From a virus: 22,220 nucleotides of DNA. The notes below the pieces were generated by a model. That model had not been told where the DNA came from. It ran no database searches and saw nothing but the letters and a program-made list of their open reading frames with translations. Positions 8,111-17,953 of the stretch are shown here, one piece after another (positions within the stretch are counted from its first letter, which is position 1; every line of letters starts with the position of its first letter). The position numbers were made by a program, and so were the translations under genes. The stretch spans positions 1-22,220 of IMG/VR virus record IMGVR_UViG_3300049783_002302. The stretch is one strand, 5' to 3'.

Positions 8111-8397
8111 CCCTAGTAAAATCGGCCAACCCTAGTAAAACCCTAGTAAATTATTTTCTTTATATTTCATATGTTTATATAACATTTACTAGGGTTACTA
8201 GGGTTACTAGGGTTTTTTGAGCCTCGCGTAGGAAAAAAACACCTCTTTTTACGCTATATTTACGCGCGTGCGCGCACATATAACCCTAGCAACCCTAGTA
8301 AATCAGAAAAACGCCCCGCAAAGCCGCGTGGTTGCTGTATCTCATTTACTAGGGTTGAAAAAACCAACCCTAGTACTACCCTAGCAACCCTAGTAAA
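8111..8397. repeat. Iteron-like array of CCCTAGTAAA repeats, probable replication origin
   Basis: About twelve copies of CCCTAGTAAA or shorter CCCTAGY variants are seen. On plus: 8111-8120, 8130-8139, 8141-8150, 8284-8290, 8293-8302, then three packed at 8368-8397. Inverted: three tandem 9-mers TTACTAGGG at 8186-8212, and one copy at 8345-8354. Opposed copies at 8141-8150 and 8185-8194 flank an AT-rich stretch (8151-8184). The array lies directly downstream of the primase and helicase genes. This is the look of an iteron origin with an unwinding element, as in P4-type phages whose replicase binds repeats. Function is inference; the repeats are seen directly. Confidence 0.75.
8261..8282. other. 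22-base perfect alternating pyrimidine-purine tract
   Basis: Every step from 8261 to 8282 alternates pyrimidine and purine, with a GC-rich core (CGCGCGTGCGCGCACA) grading into TATA. Such tracts can adopt Z-DNA or melt easily under negative supercoiling. It lies in the middle of the repeat array, between the inverted tandem copies and the next direct pair, so it may belong to the origin. Confidence 0.6.
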
Positions 8398-8407
8398 TTT
8401 CACCGTT

Positions 8408-11491: not shown

Positions 11492-11696
11492 GGCCCGACT
11501 CCTGTAATTGCTGGCAATACACACACAACTCAACACCAGGCAAATAGGCCCGACGCTTTTCAGGAATGTCATCACCGCACTCTAAACAATGCGGATGATC
11601 AACCGCGGGGCGCTCAGCTTTGCGCTTAGCCTCAGCCAAGGCCAAATCCAACATGCGCTGGCTTTCTTCTGCTGCGTAGTCACATAAATCAGCCAT
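11484..11696 (-). CDS. TraR/DksA-type zinc-finger transcription regulator
   Basis: The product is 70 residues, typical of plasmid and phage TraR proteins (about 70). An N-terminal helix (residues 5-28) with acidic DLCDYAAEE, of the kind that enters the RNA polymerase secondary channel, is followed by a four-cysteine zinc finger: Cys37/Cys40 (CLECG) and Cys58/Cys61 (CVYC). TraR proteins mimic DksA plus ppGpp, redirecting host transcription; here that could favour phage promoters. The start overlaps the CII-like stop by eight bases (ATGGCTGA), placing it in the early lytic operon. Confidence 0.85.
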   Translation of the reverse strand: MADLCDYAAEESQRMLDLALAEAKRKAERPAVDHPHCLECGDDIPEKRRAYLPGVELCVYCQQLQESGRG

Positions 11697-12174
11697 TGCT
11701 CACCTCCGCAGACTGCCTAGCACCGGCAACAATACTCAGCACCTTGCTAATAACCTCATAGCCATAATGCTCAAGCTCGTTTACCTCGGCGGTGTCCCAG
11801 CGCTGATCTGCCACACCGCTATTCAAGCTTTCAACAAACGCACCCGCTGCGTTTAGCACCTCACCCAATGCTTTAAGCGCATCACTTGTGCCTGGTACCG
11901 GCGTTACATCAAACAACACCTTGCCACGCGCGCGGGCATACGCCTCGTCTATACGCGGGTCATCAGTAATGCCCACCAGCGTTTCAAACTCCGGAAGCGT
12001 TAAATGATGTGTGGTATTGGCAATGCTGAGTTTCTTCTGAAGGGTGTCGTAATTGGTGGCCATAATGGCCGCTAAGGCCGTTAAACCACCGCGATAGTCG
12101 CGGCTTGCGCAATACAGCGCTTGGTGTAAATCCAGCACAGGGCCGGCGTCAGGCAACAAATGGTTTCGACTCAT
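11689..12174 (-). CDS. Phage regulatory protein CII / CP76 family
   Basis: This 161-residue protein has the Phage_CP76 (CII family) layout. The N-terminal DLHQALYCASRDYRGGLTAL precedes an HTH-like MATNYDTLQKKLSIANTTHHLT, where NYDTLQKKLS is typical, then a helical C-terminal half (SDALKALGEVLNAAGAFVES). In Mu-like and P2-like relatives the family regulates early transcription and establishment of lysogeny; the specific promoter is unknown. GAGGG ten bases before the ATG is the likely ribosome binding site. The leader upstream (12175-12489) is unusually long and holds a strong hairpin at 12255-12297 whose minus-strand loop displays CCACCCACCACA. Confidence 0.8.
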   Translation of the reverse strand: MSRNHLLPDAGPVLDLHQALYCASRDYRGGLTALAAIMATNYDTLQKKLSIANTTHHLTLPEFETLVGITDDPRIDEAYARARGKVLFDVTPVPGTSDALKALGEVLNAAGAFVESLNSGVADQRWDTAEVNELEHYGYEVISKVLSIVAGARQSAEVSNG

Positions 12175-12254
12175 GGCGAAAATTCCCTCATATCGCCGTA
12201 GCCAAGACGCGGTGAATCCGCTTATTCTTGAACTGCGGCATGGTTGTGTCGCAC

Positions 12255-12306
12255 GCCTCGGGGTGGAATATCTGTGGTGGGTGGACCACTCCGAGGCACT
12301 TTTTAA
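12255..12306 (+). terminator. Strong hairpin with T-run; terminator on plus, leader structure on minus
   Basis: GCCTCGG (12255-12261) pairs with CCGAGGC (12291-12297), continued by a G-T wobble and GTGG/CCAC, giving a 12-pair stem. The 19-base loop contains TGTGGTGGGTGG (12274-12285). On the plus strand it is followed by ACTTTTTAATT, which makes it a classic intrinsic terminator. On the minus strand the same stem lies in the CII leader and shows CCACCCACCACA. No plus-strand protein gene with a ribosome binding site feeds it, so a short plus RNA is possible. Confidence 0.65.
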
Positions 12307-12356
12307 TTATATAAGTTAGACCTAATCCGGTTTAACACACCGCTATAGGACGGTTA

Positions 12357-12563
12357 ATGAGCATTCCAAACATCAGTCACCCCACAAAATTTAAAATCAA
12401 AGGAATGATTTTTGAGGTGATCTCCTATGGCCGGCTGACCAACGACCAAGCCGCCAAAATTGCTATGCATTTTTATCGTTCCCATAAATTTAAGAAGTCG
12501 GATCAAGGCAAATTATTTCAGGTGATGACTCAGTTCGATTCCAATTCTGCAAACCTGCTATGA
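12357..12563 (+). CDS. Small hypothetical phage protein, antisense to the early operon
   Basis: This is a 68-residue frame with protein-like composition: a beta-prone N-terminus (PTKFKIKGMIFEVISYGRL) and a basic helix (NDQAAKIAMHFYRSHKFKKS). No family is recognised. AGGACGG a few bases before the ATG could be a ribosome binding site. It sits on the plus strand in the leader between the Cro-side gene and CII and overlaps the 3' end of the minus-strand gene at 12490-12702 by 74 bases, tail to tail. If expressed, its transcript would run antisense to cro and on toward cI, like lambda pRE. Only one of the two overlapping frames may be real. Confidence 0.45.
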   Translation: MSIPNISHPTKFKIKGMIFEVISYGRLTNDQAAKIAMHFYRSHKFKKSDQGKLFQVMTQFDSNSANLL

Positions 12564-12702
12564 GCATGTCCTTATCAACCAGCGGCAGCATCAACACGGT
12601 ATCGGTTTCACAGGAATAAATTTCTATTACATCTCCCTCACCCGCCGAGAGTGCCAACCGAATATGTCTATCCATGCCCTGCGACGCCTTGTTATCTCGC
12701 AT
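12490..12702 (-). CDS. Small hypothetical protein downstream of Cro
   Basis: The frame has 70 residues and starts 2 bases after the Cro-like stop, with GGCGAGG about ten bases upstream. The sequence alternates beta-prone stretches (GDVIEIYSCETDTVLMLPLV) with a C-terminal AGLQNWNRTESSPEI; no cysteine motif or membrane segment is evident. No family is recognised. The position as second gene of the lytic operon suggests a regulatory or switch accessory protein, but this is context only. Its 3' end overlaps the plus-strand frame at 12357-12563. Confidence 0.55.
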   Translation of the reverse strand: MRDNKASQGMDRHIRLALSAGEGDVIEIYSCETDTVLMLPLVDKDMLIAGLQNWNRTESSPEIICLDPTS

Positions 12703-13007: not shown

Positions 13008-13670
13008 ATGCAGAATCAGATCCCGAATCAGGCCACTTGGAGCAGGCTCAAAGCCACGATGGAGAGTCTGAACTGGAGCGAGCAAGAATTAGCAGACCGC
13101 TCAGGCGTCCCACAACCCACCATTCACAGAATTATAAATGGTCAATCTAAAAGCCCTCGGTACGAGAACTTGTTTCGGATCATGAAAGCACTAGGGCTTG
13201 ATGAGGGCTCATTTCAAGTCGGCGAAGACCCCAACAGCTATACGACCAATACCCGCGAGGGGCCAGCTTTGCAAAGCAAAGTACCACTCATATCTTGGGT
13301 TCAAGCCGGCGACCTATGCGAAGCCATTGACCTATTCTCGCCTGGGATCGCTGACGAGTGGCTCAACTGCCCTTTCAAGCATAGCGATAACGCATTCTGC
13401 TTAAAGGTAGTCGGACTAAGCATGTACCCCGAGTACCGTGAAGGCGAGATCATTCTTGTTGAGCCAGCACTTGAGGCAAGACATGGCGATGACGTAGTGG
13501 TTCGGACTCCTGAAAACACAACTACCTTCAAACGGCTACACTCTTCAGATGACGGCACCTATTTAATTGCACTAAACCCAGACCTAAAAAACCGCATTAT
13601 TGAAATACCTGCAGATACCGTCTTTTGCGGCGTAGTAACGGGATCATGGACTAACCGAAGAAACAAATAA
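13008..13670 (+). CDS. CI-type prophage repressor, HTH plus S24 (LexA-like) autoprotease
   Basis: The repressor has 220 residues. The N-terminal HTH is WSEQELADRSGVPQPTIHRI (23-42), followed by INGQSKSPRYENLFRIMKAL. The C-terminal S24 domain has the nucleophile Ser138 in VGLSMYPEYREGEIILVEP and the general base Lys175 in TTTFKRL. The RecA-stimulated self-cleavage site is Ala100-Gly101 (SWVQAGDL). The protein should hold the prophage silent and be inactivated during SOS, making the element UV or mitomycin inducible. It is divergent from the Cro-like gene. ACAGGT upstream of the ATG is a modest ribosome binding site. All catalytic residues are present, so the repressor looks functional. Confidence 0.95.
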   Translation: MQNQIPNQATWSRLKATMESLNWSEQELADRSGVPQPTIHRIINGQSKSPRYENLFRIMKALGLDEGSFQVGEDPNSYTTNTREGPALQSKVPLISWVQAGDLCEAIDLFSPGIADEWLNCPFKHSDNAFCLKVVGLSMYPEYREGEIILVEPALEARHGDDVVVRTPENTTTFKRLHSSDDGTYLIALNPDLKNRIIEIPADTVFCGVVTGSWTNRRNK

Positions 13671-14329: not shown

Positions 14330-14358
14330 GTTGAACCCACCCACCACACAGGGTCAAC
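14330..14358 (+). promoter_or_regulatory. Leader hairpin with ACCCACCACACA loop covering a ribosome binding site
   Basis: GTTG (14330-14333) pairs with CAAC (14355-14358), and ACCC (14335-14338) with GGGT (14351-14354), with one bulged A. The apical loop is ACCCACCACACA. The AGGG Shine-Dalgarno for ATG 14362 lies in the 3' arm, so the hairpin could restrict translation of the operon's first gene. Confidence 0.5.
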
Positions 14359-14361
14359 ACA

Positions 14362-14550
14362 ATGAACCAGACACAACCATGCCGTATTTATTTACACCCC
14401 ACGGCGGCCAATAGCCCTGAAAAGATTCAGGCCGTTATCGCCCGTACTGGCCTCGCCATTGTTATTGGCGGCAACAGTCAGGCTGCCGCACTTAAGCCCC
14501 ACACCACCCCAACACAGGACGATTTTGGCCCTTGGGATGGTGCCGCATGA
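14362..14550 (+). CDS. Small hypothetical protein, first gene of the rightward operon
   Basis: The product has 62 residues, starting MNQTQPCRIYLHPTAANSPE, with a small hydrophobic stretch GLAIVIGGNSQAAAL and a Pro/Thr/Asp-rich tail. No family is recognised. AGGG eight bases before the ATG serves as ribosome binding site and is part of a leader hairpin. The stop overlaps the next start (ATGA). As the first product after a repressor-controlled promoter it should be made early after induction; nothing in the sequence shows its job. Confidence 0.65.
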   Translation: MNQTQPCRIYLHPTAANSPEKIQAVIARTGLAIVIGGNSQAAALKPHTTPTQDDFGPWDGAA

Positions 14551-14831: not shown

Positions 14832-15154
14832 ACCCTCAAATTCAAGACAAAATAAACGCGCTGCTGTTGCTGTGTTTTGAAGTAACGGCGGAAGGCGTCT
14901 GGGATCTACATTTCAGCTTCGACGGCCACTGCAACGTTATTACTGTACGCGCAACTAACGCTGACCATGACTGGCAACGAGAAAACCTCCCTCTTCTAAA
15001 ATACGCATTTCCGAGCTTATGGCTCGCTTTGTATCAGCACGACCATATTGGCGAAACCGACGAAGAACACATTGCCCGCGTAAATGAAGAGCTAGACGCC
15101 GCCATCGCTTTGGTACAAGGCCTCCGCAACACGGAGGTGAGCCATGCCGCATAA
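14828..15154 (+). CDS. Hypothetical early phage protein
   Basis: The product is acidic, 108 residues, with GGAGG seven bases before the ATG and an ATGA overlap with the gene before. It contains FEVTAEGVWDLHFSFDGHCN, a WQRENLPLLKY segment and a helical Glu/Asp-rich C-terminus (DEEHIARVNEELDAAIALVQ). It looks like a small single-domain alpha/beta protein. No family is recognised; it ends 11 bases inside the following KilA-C-like gene. Confidence 0.7.
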   Translation: MNPQIQDKINALLLLCFEVTAEGVWDLHFSFDGHCNVITVRATNADHDWQRENLPLLKYAFPSLWLALYQHDHIGETDEEHIARVNEELDAAIALVQGLRNTEVSHAA

Positions 15155-16049: not shown

Positions 16050-16403
16050 ATGAAACCAACTGACCCAGGCGAACTGCTCGCCAATTTAAACGCCGGTGTA
16101 TTTGCACAACAAGTCGGCAAAGCCATTTCTGACGTCGCCGCTGGCGTTGTGGACCACAGCAAAAAAGGCCAAGTCATTATCGTGCTCGACATGACCCAGA
16201 TCGACGGCAGCCACCAAGTGAGCATTCAACACACGCTCAAATACACCGCGCCCACCAAACGCGGTAAACGCTACGAAGACACATCGTTGAAAACCCCAAT
16301 GCACGTCACAGCAAACGGCCTGCAGTTGTTTGCAGAAAGCGCCACAGGCGACATGTTCAAGAACAAAGAGCAGTCACCTTCGCAGCCAGCAGAGCGCCAC
16401 TAA
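16050..16403 (+). CDS. Conserved phage protein usually paired with DUF2303
   Basis: From ATG 16050 (AAGGA eight bases upstream) the product has 117 residues: GELLANLNAGVFAQQVGKAI, SDVAAGVVDHSKKGQVIIVL, a beta-rich middle (VSIQHTLKYTAPTKRGKR), and a polar tail. I recognise the pattern as a companion of DUF2303/YfdQ genes in many prophages, but no biochemical role is known to me. The frame extends upstream to 15987, inside the previous gene, and that extension is rejected. The 37 bases before the next gene hold two alternative hairpins. Confidence 0.7.
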   Translation: MKPTDPGELLANLNAGVFAQQVGKAISDVAAGVVDHSKKGQVIIVLDMTQIDGSHQVSIQHTLKYTAPTKRGKRYEDTSLKTPMHVTANGLQLFAESATGDMFKNKEQSPSQPAERH

Positions 16404-16438
16404 GCGCGCTCTACCATCCACCCACCACAGGATTTAGA
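16391..16438 (+). promoter_or_regulatory. Leader hairpins before DUF2303, one with ACCCACCACA loop over the ribosome binding site
   Basis: Hairpin one is AGAGCGC/GCGCTCT (16391-16397 and 16406-16412). Hairpin two is TCTA..ATCC (16410-16419) with GGAT..TAGA (16430-16438), and has apical loop ACCCACCACA. They share 16410-16412, so they compete at the base. The AGGA Shine-Dalgarno of ATG 16441 lies in the 3' arm of hairpin two. Confidence 0.45.
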
Positions 16439-16440
16439 CC

Positions 16441-17256
16441 ATGTTACCTGCAGAAACCTTAGACAAAATAATCGCAACGGCGGTTATAGCCGCTGGCGAC
16501 ACCCTTGGTACCGACACGCCAAGCATACTGTTGCCCCACGGCTACAGCATAGAAAACATTGAACACCTGCAAGATCAGCGCAGCCGCTTTCGTGGCGTAC
16601 TCAACACCCAATCGTTGCCAGACTTTTGTGACTACGTTGTCAACCAAACTGGATCAGACGTGAAGGTACCCACCTTTGTAGATGCCGAATGCATGGCCGC
16701 CGTGGCCATATTCGACCTTGGCGACACAGCCTTACCCTTGCATGCAGAGCACCAAGCCAAGCTCATTTTAAAACCCACCGCTGCCTATAACGCACTGCGC
16801 CTAATTGCCGGCGGCCGTCACAGCCAACAACAGATGGCCGAATGGGTAGAAGACTGGAACCAGTACCTAAAAGTAAAAGACAAAGACGGTGCAGACATAT
16901 CGATTGGCGTGGCCGTGCAAAAAATCCGCAGCATCACCATTAAAGCCAAATCAGAAGTCACCAGCTCTCAAGATAACTTTAGCGCTGGCCGCTCAAGCAT
17001 GGACAGCATAGAAGCCGCCCACGCAGAGCAACAACCACACGACCTAATCTTTACCACCAAACCCTACGAAGGCCTGCCACCCTTCGCCTTTACCCTACGT
17101 CTCAGCATCATCACCGGCGAGAAGCCCATGCTCTGCCCTCGCTGGGTGCAAAAAGAAGCACAGGAGGAGGAAATCGCCCAAGCCTTTAAAGACGTGCTCA
17201 AAAAGGAAATTGGTGGCCTGAGCGTGATTACCGTAGGCACGTTTAACACCAAATAA
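16441..17256 (+). CDS. DUF2303 (YfdQ) family protein
   Basis: The product has 271 residues, close to E. coli YfdQ (about 270). Family-typical blocks are ILLPHGYSIENIEHLQDQRS then RFRGVLNTQSLPDF near residues 29-62, CDYVV, VAIFDLGDTALPLH in the middle and DLIFTTKPYEGLPPFAFTLR near the C-terminus. DUF2303 proteins are widespread in prophage early regions next to recombination or anti-defence genes; their function is not established. It is a soluble protein with no signal peptide. AGGA eight bases before the ATG sits inside a leader hairpin, suggesting translational control. Confidence 0.85.
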   Translation: MLPAETLDKIIATAVIAAGDTLGTDTPSILLPHGYSIENIEHLQDQRSRFRGVLNTQSLPDFCDYVVNQTGSDVKVPTFVDAECMAAVAIFDLGDTALPLHAEHQAKLILKPTAAYNALRLIAGGRHSQQQMAEWVEDWNQYLKVKDKDGADISIGVAVQKIRSITIKAKSEVTSSQDNFSAGRSSMDSIEAAHAEQQPHDLIFTTKPYEGLPPFAFTLRLSIITGEKPMLCPRWVQKEAQEEEIAQAFKDVLKKEIGGLSVITVGTFNTK

Positions 17257-17344: not shown

Positions 17345-17626
17345 ATGGAAAATCAGCACCGCAAAATTACTGGCTATCGCGAACTAGACCAGGAAGAAAT
17401 TGACCTGATGAATGAAATCAAAGCACTTGGCCCACAGGTAGAAGGGGTTCTTCTAAAGGTAGATGCCCATATCGCTAAATTAAATGAGCGAAGCAAAACA
17501 GACGAGGCCTTGCAGCTCCGCTTGCATCAATCAACAGCATATCGCTTTTTGGCTATGGCTAAGACTGAAATGCAAACAGGCTTGATGTATGCAACACGCG
17601 CCGTAGCACAGCCTGAATTTTTCTAG
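17345..17626 (+). CDS. acb2: Acb2 anti-CBASS cyclic-nucleotide sponge
   Basis: At 93 residues it matches the known length of phage Acb2 (about 94). It begins MENQHRKITGYRELDQEEID, the family signature, continues LMNEIKALGPQVEGVLLKVD and ends in a long helix with YRFLAMAKTEMQTGLMYATR. Tyr11 and Lys26, reported as ligand-contacting residues in the Pseudomonas phage protein, are at the same positions here. Acb2 forms hexamers that sequester cyclic di- and trinucleotides made by CBASS, preventing effector activation and abortive infection. The gene stands alone in the operon, with gaps of 88 and 108 bases around it and hairpins in both. GAG about ten bases before the ATG is a weak ribosome binding site. 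Confidence 0.92.
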   Translation: MENQHRKITGYRELDQEEIDLMNEIKALGPQVEGVLLKVDAHIAKLNERSKTDEALQLRLHQSTAYRFLAMAKTEMQTGLMYATRAVAQPEFF

Positions 17627-17663: not shown

Positions 17664-17698
17664 CCCAGCGCCTCCACCCACCACGTACCGGCGCTGGG
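17664..17698 (+). promoter_or_regulatory. Stable intergenic hairpin with CCACCCACCAC loop
   Basis: CCCAGCGCC (17664-17672) pairs perfectly with GGCGCTGGG (17690-17698). The 17-base loop is TCCACCCACCACGTACC. It follows the acb2 stop by 38 bases and precedes ATG 17735 by 37 bases. There is no T-run, so it is not an intrinsic terminator. The loop carries the motif found at three other leaders. Confidence 0.6.
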
Positions 17699-17734
17699 TA
17701 ACTGACACAACCACTGAGCTTAATCGGAGCCGCT

Positions 17735-17953
17735 ATGAGCGAAACCATAGAGAATAAATTGCGACGCATGGAAAAAGCCCGCAACGCGCATAATGAAAAC
17801 ATACAGCGCATTAGCGCTGCACTTCCCAAGCTAAAAGGCCAAGAAAAACTACGGGCTGAAAAAAGCATTGCCAACCTTAGTGCCCAAATTCTTGAAATAG
17901 ACAAACACCTGTTTCGCTCTGAGTGCTCACAATTCAGAGGGATACCAGCATGA
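17735..17953 (+). CDS. Small coiled-coil hypothetical protein
   Basis: The product has 72 residues and is strongly helical and charged (TIENKLRRMEKARNAHNENI, then LRAEKSIANLSAQILEIDKH), probably a helical hairpin. No family is recognised. CGGAG five bases before the ATG is a good ribosome binding site. The stop overlaps the next gene (ATGA). It sits directly after acb2 and the 17664 hairpin, so it may be part of the same anti-defence cluster, which is inference only. Confidence 0.65.
   Translation: MSETIENKLRRMEKARNAHNENIQRISAALPKLKGQEKLRAEKSIANLSAQILEIDKHLFRSECSQFRGIPA

Follow-up and report, generated by a model that had tools for sequence, protein, structure and literature searches.

Phage antisense regulators that are known in detail (OOP, sar, aQ and c4) mostly act on one target, and OOP covers the 3' end of cII. 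OOP and aQ of lambda and sar of P22 are short antisense RNAs that lower the expression of switch genes, the first two in cis and sar by pairing with the ant mRNA, each with a single target (PMC12197685). The C4 RNAs of P1 and P7 (RF01695) and the C4-like RNAs of Acinetobacter are structured phage RNAs of ~77 nt with two exposed segments (PMC5320573); one segment pairs upstream and gives specificity, the other pairs at the ribosome-binding site, and both change together with their target between heteroimmune phages (PMC5320573, PMC12197685). C4 itself has three stems and is cut by RNase P from a longer transcript, with processing at GGW. In lambda the establishment promoter pRE lies in the leader on the cII side and is aimed across cro to cI, and we know of no short structured trans-acting RNA described at the start of the pRE transcript of lambda or of the pE transcript of 186. 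The geometry of pE in 186 has been described, and there CII primes the expression of CI (PMC7708051).

The DNA considered here, referred to as the window, is a fragment of 22,220 nt (IMG/VR record IMGVR_UViG_3300049783_002302, positions 1 to 22,220) of a temperate phage; among described phages, the closest to it are temperate phages of Pseudomonas. The plus strand opposite its cII leader looks like a gene for a small RNA (Table 1), and judging from the sequence comparisons below this is probably a two-seed antisense RNA of ~70 nt that would be made from a pE-type promoter and would block early genes in trans. A sequence-only reading had already put forward a trans-acting antisense RNA on this strand, an idea supported by the promoter comparison, by stems that are specific to the antisense RNA and by the joint change of loop and target in 80 of 80 phages.

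In its mode of action the proposed RNA would seem to come closest to C4, as two exposed segments are complementary to sequence around the target ribosome-binding site. It would differ from C4 in having its own promoter, at least two hairpins (two in the fold of the window type), an antisense relationship to the cII leader and several targets, and the C4 model RF01695 gave no match within the element up to an E value of 10. It is like OOP, aQ and sar in being a short phage antisense RNA, but it runs antisense to the 5' leader of cII, not to the 3' end of that gene, and several separate early-gene start regions are matched through two repeated seeds. The promoter-like element lies in the cII leader and is directed across cro to cI, which resembles lambda pRE and 186 pE (in 186 it is apl that is crossed), and the CII of the window belongs to the CP76 Pfam family, as does that of 186. 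In neither the window nor eight relatives did any of the 4227 Rfam families reach its gathering score, and no description of such an RNA was found in the openly accessible papers searched.

Table 1. Features of the antisense locus and of its proposed targets in the window.
Feature	Position	Strand	Basis or remark
-35-like element TAGCCA	12199..12204	+	exact in 62/72 relatives
-10-like element TATTCT	12223..12228	+	spacer 18; T, A and final T kept in relatives
Proposed antisense RNA, ~70 nt	12235..12304	+	predicted +1 to end of T-run; two-hairpin fold
Hairpin 1, GCGGCAT-GGTT-GTGTCGC	12235..12252	+	fold; begins at predicted +1
Seed B CGGCATGGTTGTGTC, complementary to GACACAACCATGCCG	12236..12250	+	exact 15-nt complement at 14370-14384
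Hairpin 2, terminator-like, seed A in loop	12255..12297	+	sequence, stem search, alignment
Seed A TGTGGTGGGTGG	12273..12284	+	complement at 14337 and 16418; at 17674 with 1 mismatch
T-run TTTTT	12300..12304	+	sequence
cII-like activator (Phage_CP76, phrog_101)	11689..12174	-	Pfam E 3.3e-18, PHROG E 4.6e-25
cII leader, cis-antisense partner of the proposed RNA	gene 11689..12174	-	
cI repressor (HTH + S24)	13008..13670	+	3' of the antisense promoter, same strand
First early-operon gene, phrog_13491, 62 aa, proposed main target	14362..14550	+	E 4.1e-15
Target site A, leader hairpin of first early-operon gene	14337..14348	+	exact complement of seed A
Target site B GACACAACCATGCCG, within codons 3-8 of first early-operon gene	14370..14384	+	
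Weaker target site B CCATGCCGC, over start of ORF 15144	15142..15150	+	duplex z -3.9
DUF2303/YfdQ-like gene, proposed target	16441..17256	+	Pfam E 9.2e-50
Target site A, just 5' of DUF2303 ribosome-binding site	16417..16430	+	duplex z -5.4
Small gene of no named family, proposed target	17735..17953	+	shared seed sequences
Target site A CCACCCACCACG, in 9-bp hairpin	17674..17685	+	1 mismatch
Target site B GACACAACCA	17704..17713	+	shared with cII leader element

Promoter-like element and ends of the predicted RNA

A profile scan produced 340 relatives, of which 80 were kept, and about 80 relatives, mostly Pseudomonas phages together with one Halomonas phage, retain both the promoter and the hairpins. 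The earlier reading had seen no convincing promoter upstream and named this as its weak point; that objection falls away, as the arrangement TAGCCA-N17/18-TANNNT, found at 12199-12228 in the window, is conserved in the relatives. There TAGCCA is found on the antisense strand at a distance of 24-26 nt from the start of cII, the spacer is 17-18 nt and the -10 takes the forms TATCCT, TACTCT, TATTCT, TATGCT, TACAGT and TACTAT. Almost all relatives without an exact TAGCCA are accounted for by near-variants or by a shifted promoter, the latter in five rearranged genomes where TAGCCA-N17/18-TACTAT is found 142-151 nt away and the RNA behind it is the same except that its stems are longer. Both the -35 and the -10 agree at only four of six positions, and the proposed promoter would therefore be weak without an activator.

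The start point predicted from this promoter is near 12235, the first base of hairpin 1, and the 70 nt of the proposed RNA would read GCGGCATGGTTGTGTCGC-AC-hairpin 2-ACTTTTT, with a z of about -4 to -5 for the two-hairpin fold. A CM built from the Pseudomonas relatives matches 12235-12300 of the plus strand weakly (20.7 bits, E 0.48). It could be argued that from 12173 the plus strand codes for a peptide of 48 aa (MAKIPSYRRSQ...) and that conservation is that of a coding sequence, as the frame 12173-12319 overlaps the proposed RNA and is open in the window and in relatives L005 and L006; yet L007 has no such start, the predicted RNA begins after the start codon and it is structure, not codons, that is conserved, so that a peptide seems scarcely credible.

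The hairpin and T-run which first drew attention to the locus are confirmed as described, with 12-bp arms GCCTCGGGGTGG (12255-12266) and CCACTCCGAGGC (12286-12297) followed by AC and the T-run, the 3' flank reading ACTTTTTAATT. A GC-rich hairpin with a U-run is what is expected of an intrinsic terminator, and to call it a textbook case is fair for the window but too strong for the relatives, where the T-run is only partly conserved: it is good in L006, a near relative, and in some Pseudomonas phages and short in many others. Of 60 unique relatives, 19 have at least four T after the last hairpin and 35 have at least three. Termination at hairpin 2 is thus likely in the window and uncertain in other phages. 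The remark that no plus-strand gene obviously needs a terminator here has to be amended, since cI is the next well-supported plus-strand gene 3' of the proposed RNA and the terminator would lie within the would-be transcript for cI establishment.

Which strand carries the structure

Complementarity of the loop to other leaders is by itself a trivial result of motif repetition, as repetition alone makes the antisense of any one site complementary to all the rest; the strand must be decided by other means, and it is the strand evidence that makes the case. A stem search that was neutral to strand, scoring G-U and A-C alike, found 19 A-C and 5 G-U among the internal non-Watson-Crick positions of cII-leader stems read in the sense direction. 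An A-C in the sense reading is a G-U in the antisense RNA, and the variation in the stems therefore preserves antisense pairing.

The two-hairpin structure leads to the same reading. Across 29 aligned relatives 99.2% of cells are paired when read as antisense and 82.5% when read as sense, with 124 G-U against 3 A-C cells in the antisense reading, although the relatives are not independent, so that cell counts overstate the number of events, and the outline of hairpin 1 came from the antisense fold, so that the comparison is biased in this half. Hairpin 2 on its own, the stem of which was not chosen by strand, gives 35 G-U against 2 A-C. Six pairs have changed on both sides, a number matched by none of 500 shuffles. 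The plus strand of the window folds at -33.6 kcal/mol (z -4.0) and the minus strand at -20.5 kcal/mol (z -2.6); the antisense fold is the stabler in 67 of 67 relatives and has the lower z in 15 of 18, and hairpin 1 is stabler as antisense in 27 of 29 unique 5' ends. No G-U-tolerant bias is seen where the targets differ from the cII leader (13 versus 17), and this comparison lends no support. On the evidence of stem variation the question of strand is answered in favour of antisense over sense.

This bears on an alternative in which the element works on the sense strand, with C/A/U-rich loops bound by a phage RNA-binding protein such as the phrog_13491 product, much as N binds boxB in lambda, and with the antisense complementarity being incidental. 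Every occurrence of the complement of seed A is in the sense orientation of its downstream gene (cII-like, phrog_13491, DUF2303 and 17735), at places like those of lambda nutL and nutR; there too hairpins stand at the head of the left operon and in the cro-cII interval, and the loops are phage-specific. The phrog_13491 gene is present in all relatives with enough sequence and, besides cI and cro, it is the sole shared early gene that differs strongly between LPPA56 and Meadow, the loops of which differ. Such a protein is nevertheless unlikely given that the stems maintain antisense pairing, that a promoter is conserved on the antisense strand, that the cII leader conserves seed B although no gene starts there and that near-identical phrog_13491 proteins (L089, L076) carry different loops. 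Unlike lambda nut, where structure is on the sense transcript, the structure here is conserved on the opposite strand, the sites abut start codons and there are extra sites inside the operon.

Several related candidates were discarded. A trans factor acting on the sense strand was demoted once the stem variation proved antisense-specific. For phrog_13491 as an RNA-binding autoregulator the comparison of LPPA56 with Meadow is suggestive, but it is confounded by recombination, and L089 and L076 disagree; the AlphaFold model of this protein (pLDDT 56) is too poor for use. As to a lambda boxA/nut element, the PG1 loop resembles boxA, a resemblance that the other loop classes do not share.

Proposed target sites in the early operon

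The complement of seed A, CCACCCACCACA, had been reported at three places downstream, fully at 14337 and 16418 and at 11 of 12 bases at 17674, and pattern search and shuffles bear this out. When up to two mismatches are allowed seven sites are found in the window where 2.1 are expected, a number reached in none of 100 shuffles, and the 11-mer core of the motif occurs four times in the record against none for a reversed control pattern. The loop is not the only target sequence of the proposed RNA, for there is a second shared element that had been missed. This element, GACACAACCATG(CCG), has its complement at plus 12236-12250; in the cII leader it sits downstream of the hairpin and it is repeated at 14370 in full and at 17704 in part. 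A pattern joining the elements of both seeds matches six IMG/VR contigs, at least five of which are related phages.

Sequence complementary to both seeds lies near the starts at 14362 and 17735, to seed A only near 16441 and, more weakly, to seed B only at 15144. The kissing contacts suggested earlier with three accessory-operon sites therefore have complementarity at all three, but the number of matched start sites is larger. Among the 36 start regions of the window six have at least 9 nt in common with the RNA's complement, against an expectation of 0.6, and five of the six are plausible early-operon sites (14362, 15144, 16050, 16441 and 17735). Predicted duplexes at 14362 have z of -7.1 for seed B and -3.1 for seed A, and those at 17735 have z of -3.7 for seed A and -2.7 for seed B; the duplex z of the yfdP-like gene at 16050 is not significant, and the control starts in the window (cI and a methyltransferase) form no strong duplex.

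Leftward early genes carry seed matches in LPPA56, pAN, PG1, Turba and H4907 as well. Because GC-rich stems match by chance, the count of 9-nt matches is not clearly above control in four of six phages, pAN being the only one of the five relatives where it clearly is. Long-segment duplex energies ranked the early genes first in LPPA56 only.

Phage-specific seeds in related phages

Loops of the same leaders were compared in the Pseudomonas phages LPPA56, Turba, Lodos, Presto, Meadow, PG1, KT1, SC_9_H1H8 and pAN and the Halomonas phage H4907, and they are alike inside one phage and different between phages. For scoring, seven loop classes were used (CTCTCAC, CACCCACC, CTCTGAC, CTCTAC, CACTTACC, CACTCACC and CCCACCAC), and the natural seed classes are CTCTCAC, CTCTGAC, CTCTAC, CACTTAC, CACTCAC, CACCCAC and CCCACCAC. 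The seed A class of the cII leader is that of the phrog_13491 leader in 80 of 80 phages, across seven classes, and DUF2303 leaders which carry the motif never conflict in class with their own phage. Seed B likewise follows the phage, with ACACAACCAT in the group of the window, CACAGCA in Pseudomonas phages and GCAAACCAATGC in the Halomonas phage, and it remains phage-specific in phrog_13491 where it lies inside the first codons.

The stems around these loops are unrelated in sequence across sites and phages, and the copying of whole leaders therefore fails to explain the identity of the loops. A simple intrinsic terminator combined with a dispersed repeat, with complementarity due to chance or to a recent duplication of leaders, is very improbable; terminator shape and T-run would suit it, but the same loop is found on unrelated stems at each site, the counts are far over those in shuffles and there is covariation. 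A further suggestion, that the plus strand is only the leader of a CII-activated cI mRNA (pE/pRE) whose hairpin is a partial terminator or a block to cII, with no role in trans, is well suited by position, direction and the cI gene downstream, but it leaves unexplained why in 80 of 80 phages the early-operon leaders and the loop antisense to cII change together and why seed B is present inside the phrog_13491 coding sequence, and we hold it to be quite improbable.

Other sources for the specificity were rejected. No separate phage-encoded complementary RNA was found beyond chance elsewhere in the complete genomes of PG1, pAN, KT1, LPPA56 and Turba. The cI or cro product as specificity factor is at odds with KT1 and SC_9, which have common loops and different cI/cro, and with the window and L006 compared with L005 and L007, which likewise share loops but not cI/cro.

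Variation around the loops takes several forms. Three tandem loop-bearing modules lie upstream of cII in one relative (L094:5800-6060) and two in four others (L077, L097, L104 and L137), which suggests modular growth of the RNA. In L010 two successive early-operon genes are each preceded by an almost identical loop hairpin (8844 and 9282), as if new genes had been gained along with a target site. LPPA56 (L027) is 97-98% identical to Meadow and Lodos (L029/L033) rightward from the cII leader and has unrelated cI/cro, an exchange of immunity cassettes with breakpoints at target hairpins. The N-terminal residues of phrog_13491 track the seed B of the phage (TQH, TQP), and the C-terminus of most of these proteins is -AA (GG-D-AA), resembling a degradation signal.

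Proposed mechanism and distribution

The features that point to an antisense regulator are the conserved promoter-like element, the antisense-specific structure, the two-part complementarity and the co-variation with targets; transcription, repression, dependence on CII and partial termination are inferred. The promoter inside the cII leader would give rise to the ~70-nt RNA running towards cI, and this would fold as two hairpins, the first exposing seed B and the second displaying seed A in its loop. Seed A would pair in trans with loops or single-stranded stretches just 5' of the ribosome-binding sites of early (PL-like) genes and seed B over or beside their start codons, so that translation of several early genes would be blocked together, whilst in cis the RNA would be fully complementary to the cII leader. 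As position and direction of the promoter correspond to those of the CII-activated establishment promoters of lambda (pRE) and 186 (pE), the RNA would be made at commitment to lysogeny, with some polymerases stopping at hairpin 2 to give the short RNA and the remainder continuing to cI.

If correct, this would be a small RNA of phages that acts on a defined set of several genes and is encoded at the position of the CII-dependent establishment promoter of lambda and 186. It would be present in many Pseudomonas prophages, and through it the decision for lysogeny would be coupled to RNA silencing of the entire early operon. More tentatively, there may be a widespread class of CII-driven modular antisense RNAs of one to three hairpins which silence an early gene set through co-evolving seed and target codes and form a layer of immunity separate from cI/cro, a generalisation that we regard as possible and somewhat doubtful. 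Were it true, the phage-specific codes could set which co-infecting phages silence each other, and the natural seed classes make specificity directly testable with existing phages.

Outside these phages no such motif was seen in the leaders looked at from yfdQ phages of E. coli, Salmonella and Shigella. A CM search in 369 genomes of the same class as a Paraburkholderia, a set without a positive control genome, gave no match and so carries no weight, and six scattered matches in unrelated bacteria from a pattern scan of genome contigs were judged to be chance.

Other features of the window

A small hairpin immediately ahead of the cII start codon holds the ribosome-binding site of this gene in its loop (12175-12197 in the window, and at orthologous sites); the arms of the hairpin vary but stay complementary (GGCGA/TCGCC, GGCGTTA/TAACGCC, ACCGTAA/TTACGGT); from this sequence pattern a separate translational control of cII is suggested. 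Within the early operon, 17345-17626 encodes a 93-aa protein with an Acb2/Tad1 hairpin domain (Pfam E 3e-13) that is possibly related to counter-defence. A cluster of direct and inverted repeats, ACCCTAGTAA/ACCCTAGCAA, lies at 8126-8400 near the end of a primase-like gene and is iteron-like. Finally, two small opposed and overlapping ORFs (68 and 70 aa) occupy 12357-12702 between cro and cII and are found only in the window and L006; they have a palindromic TTAGACC-N6-GGTTTAA in front of them, and the pair is a possible insertion.
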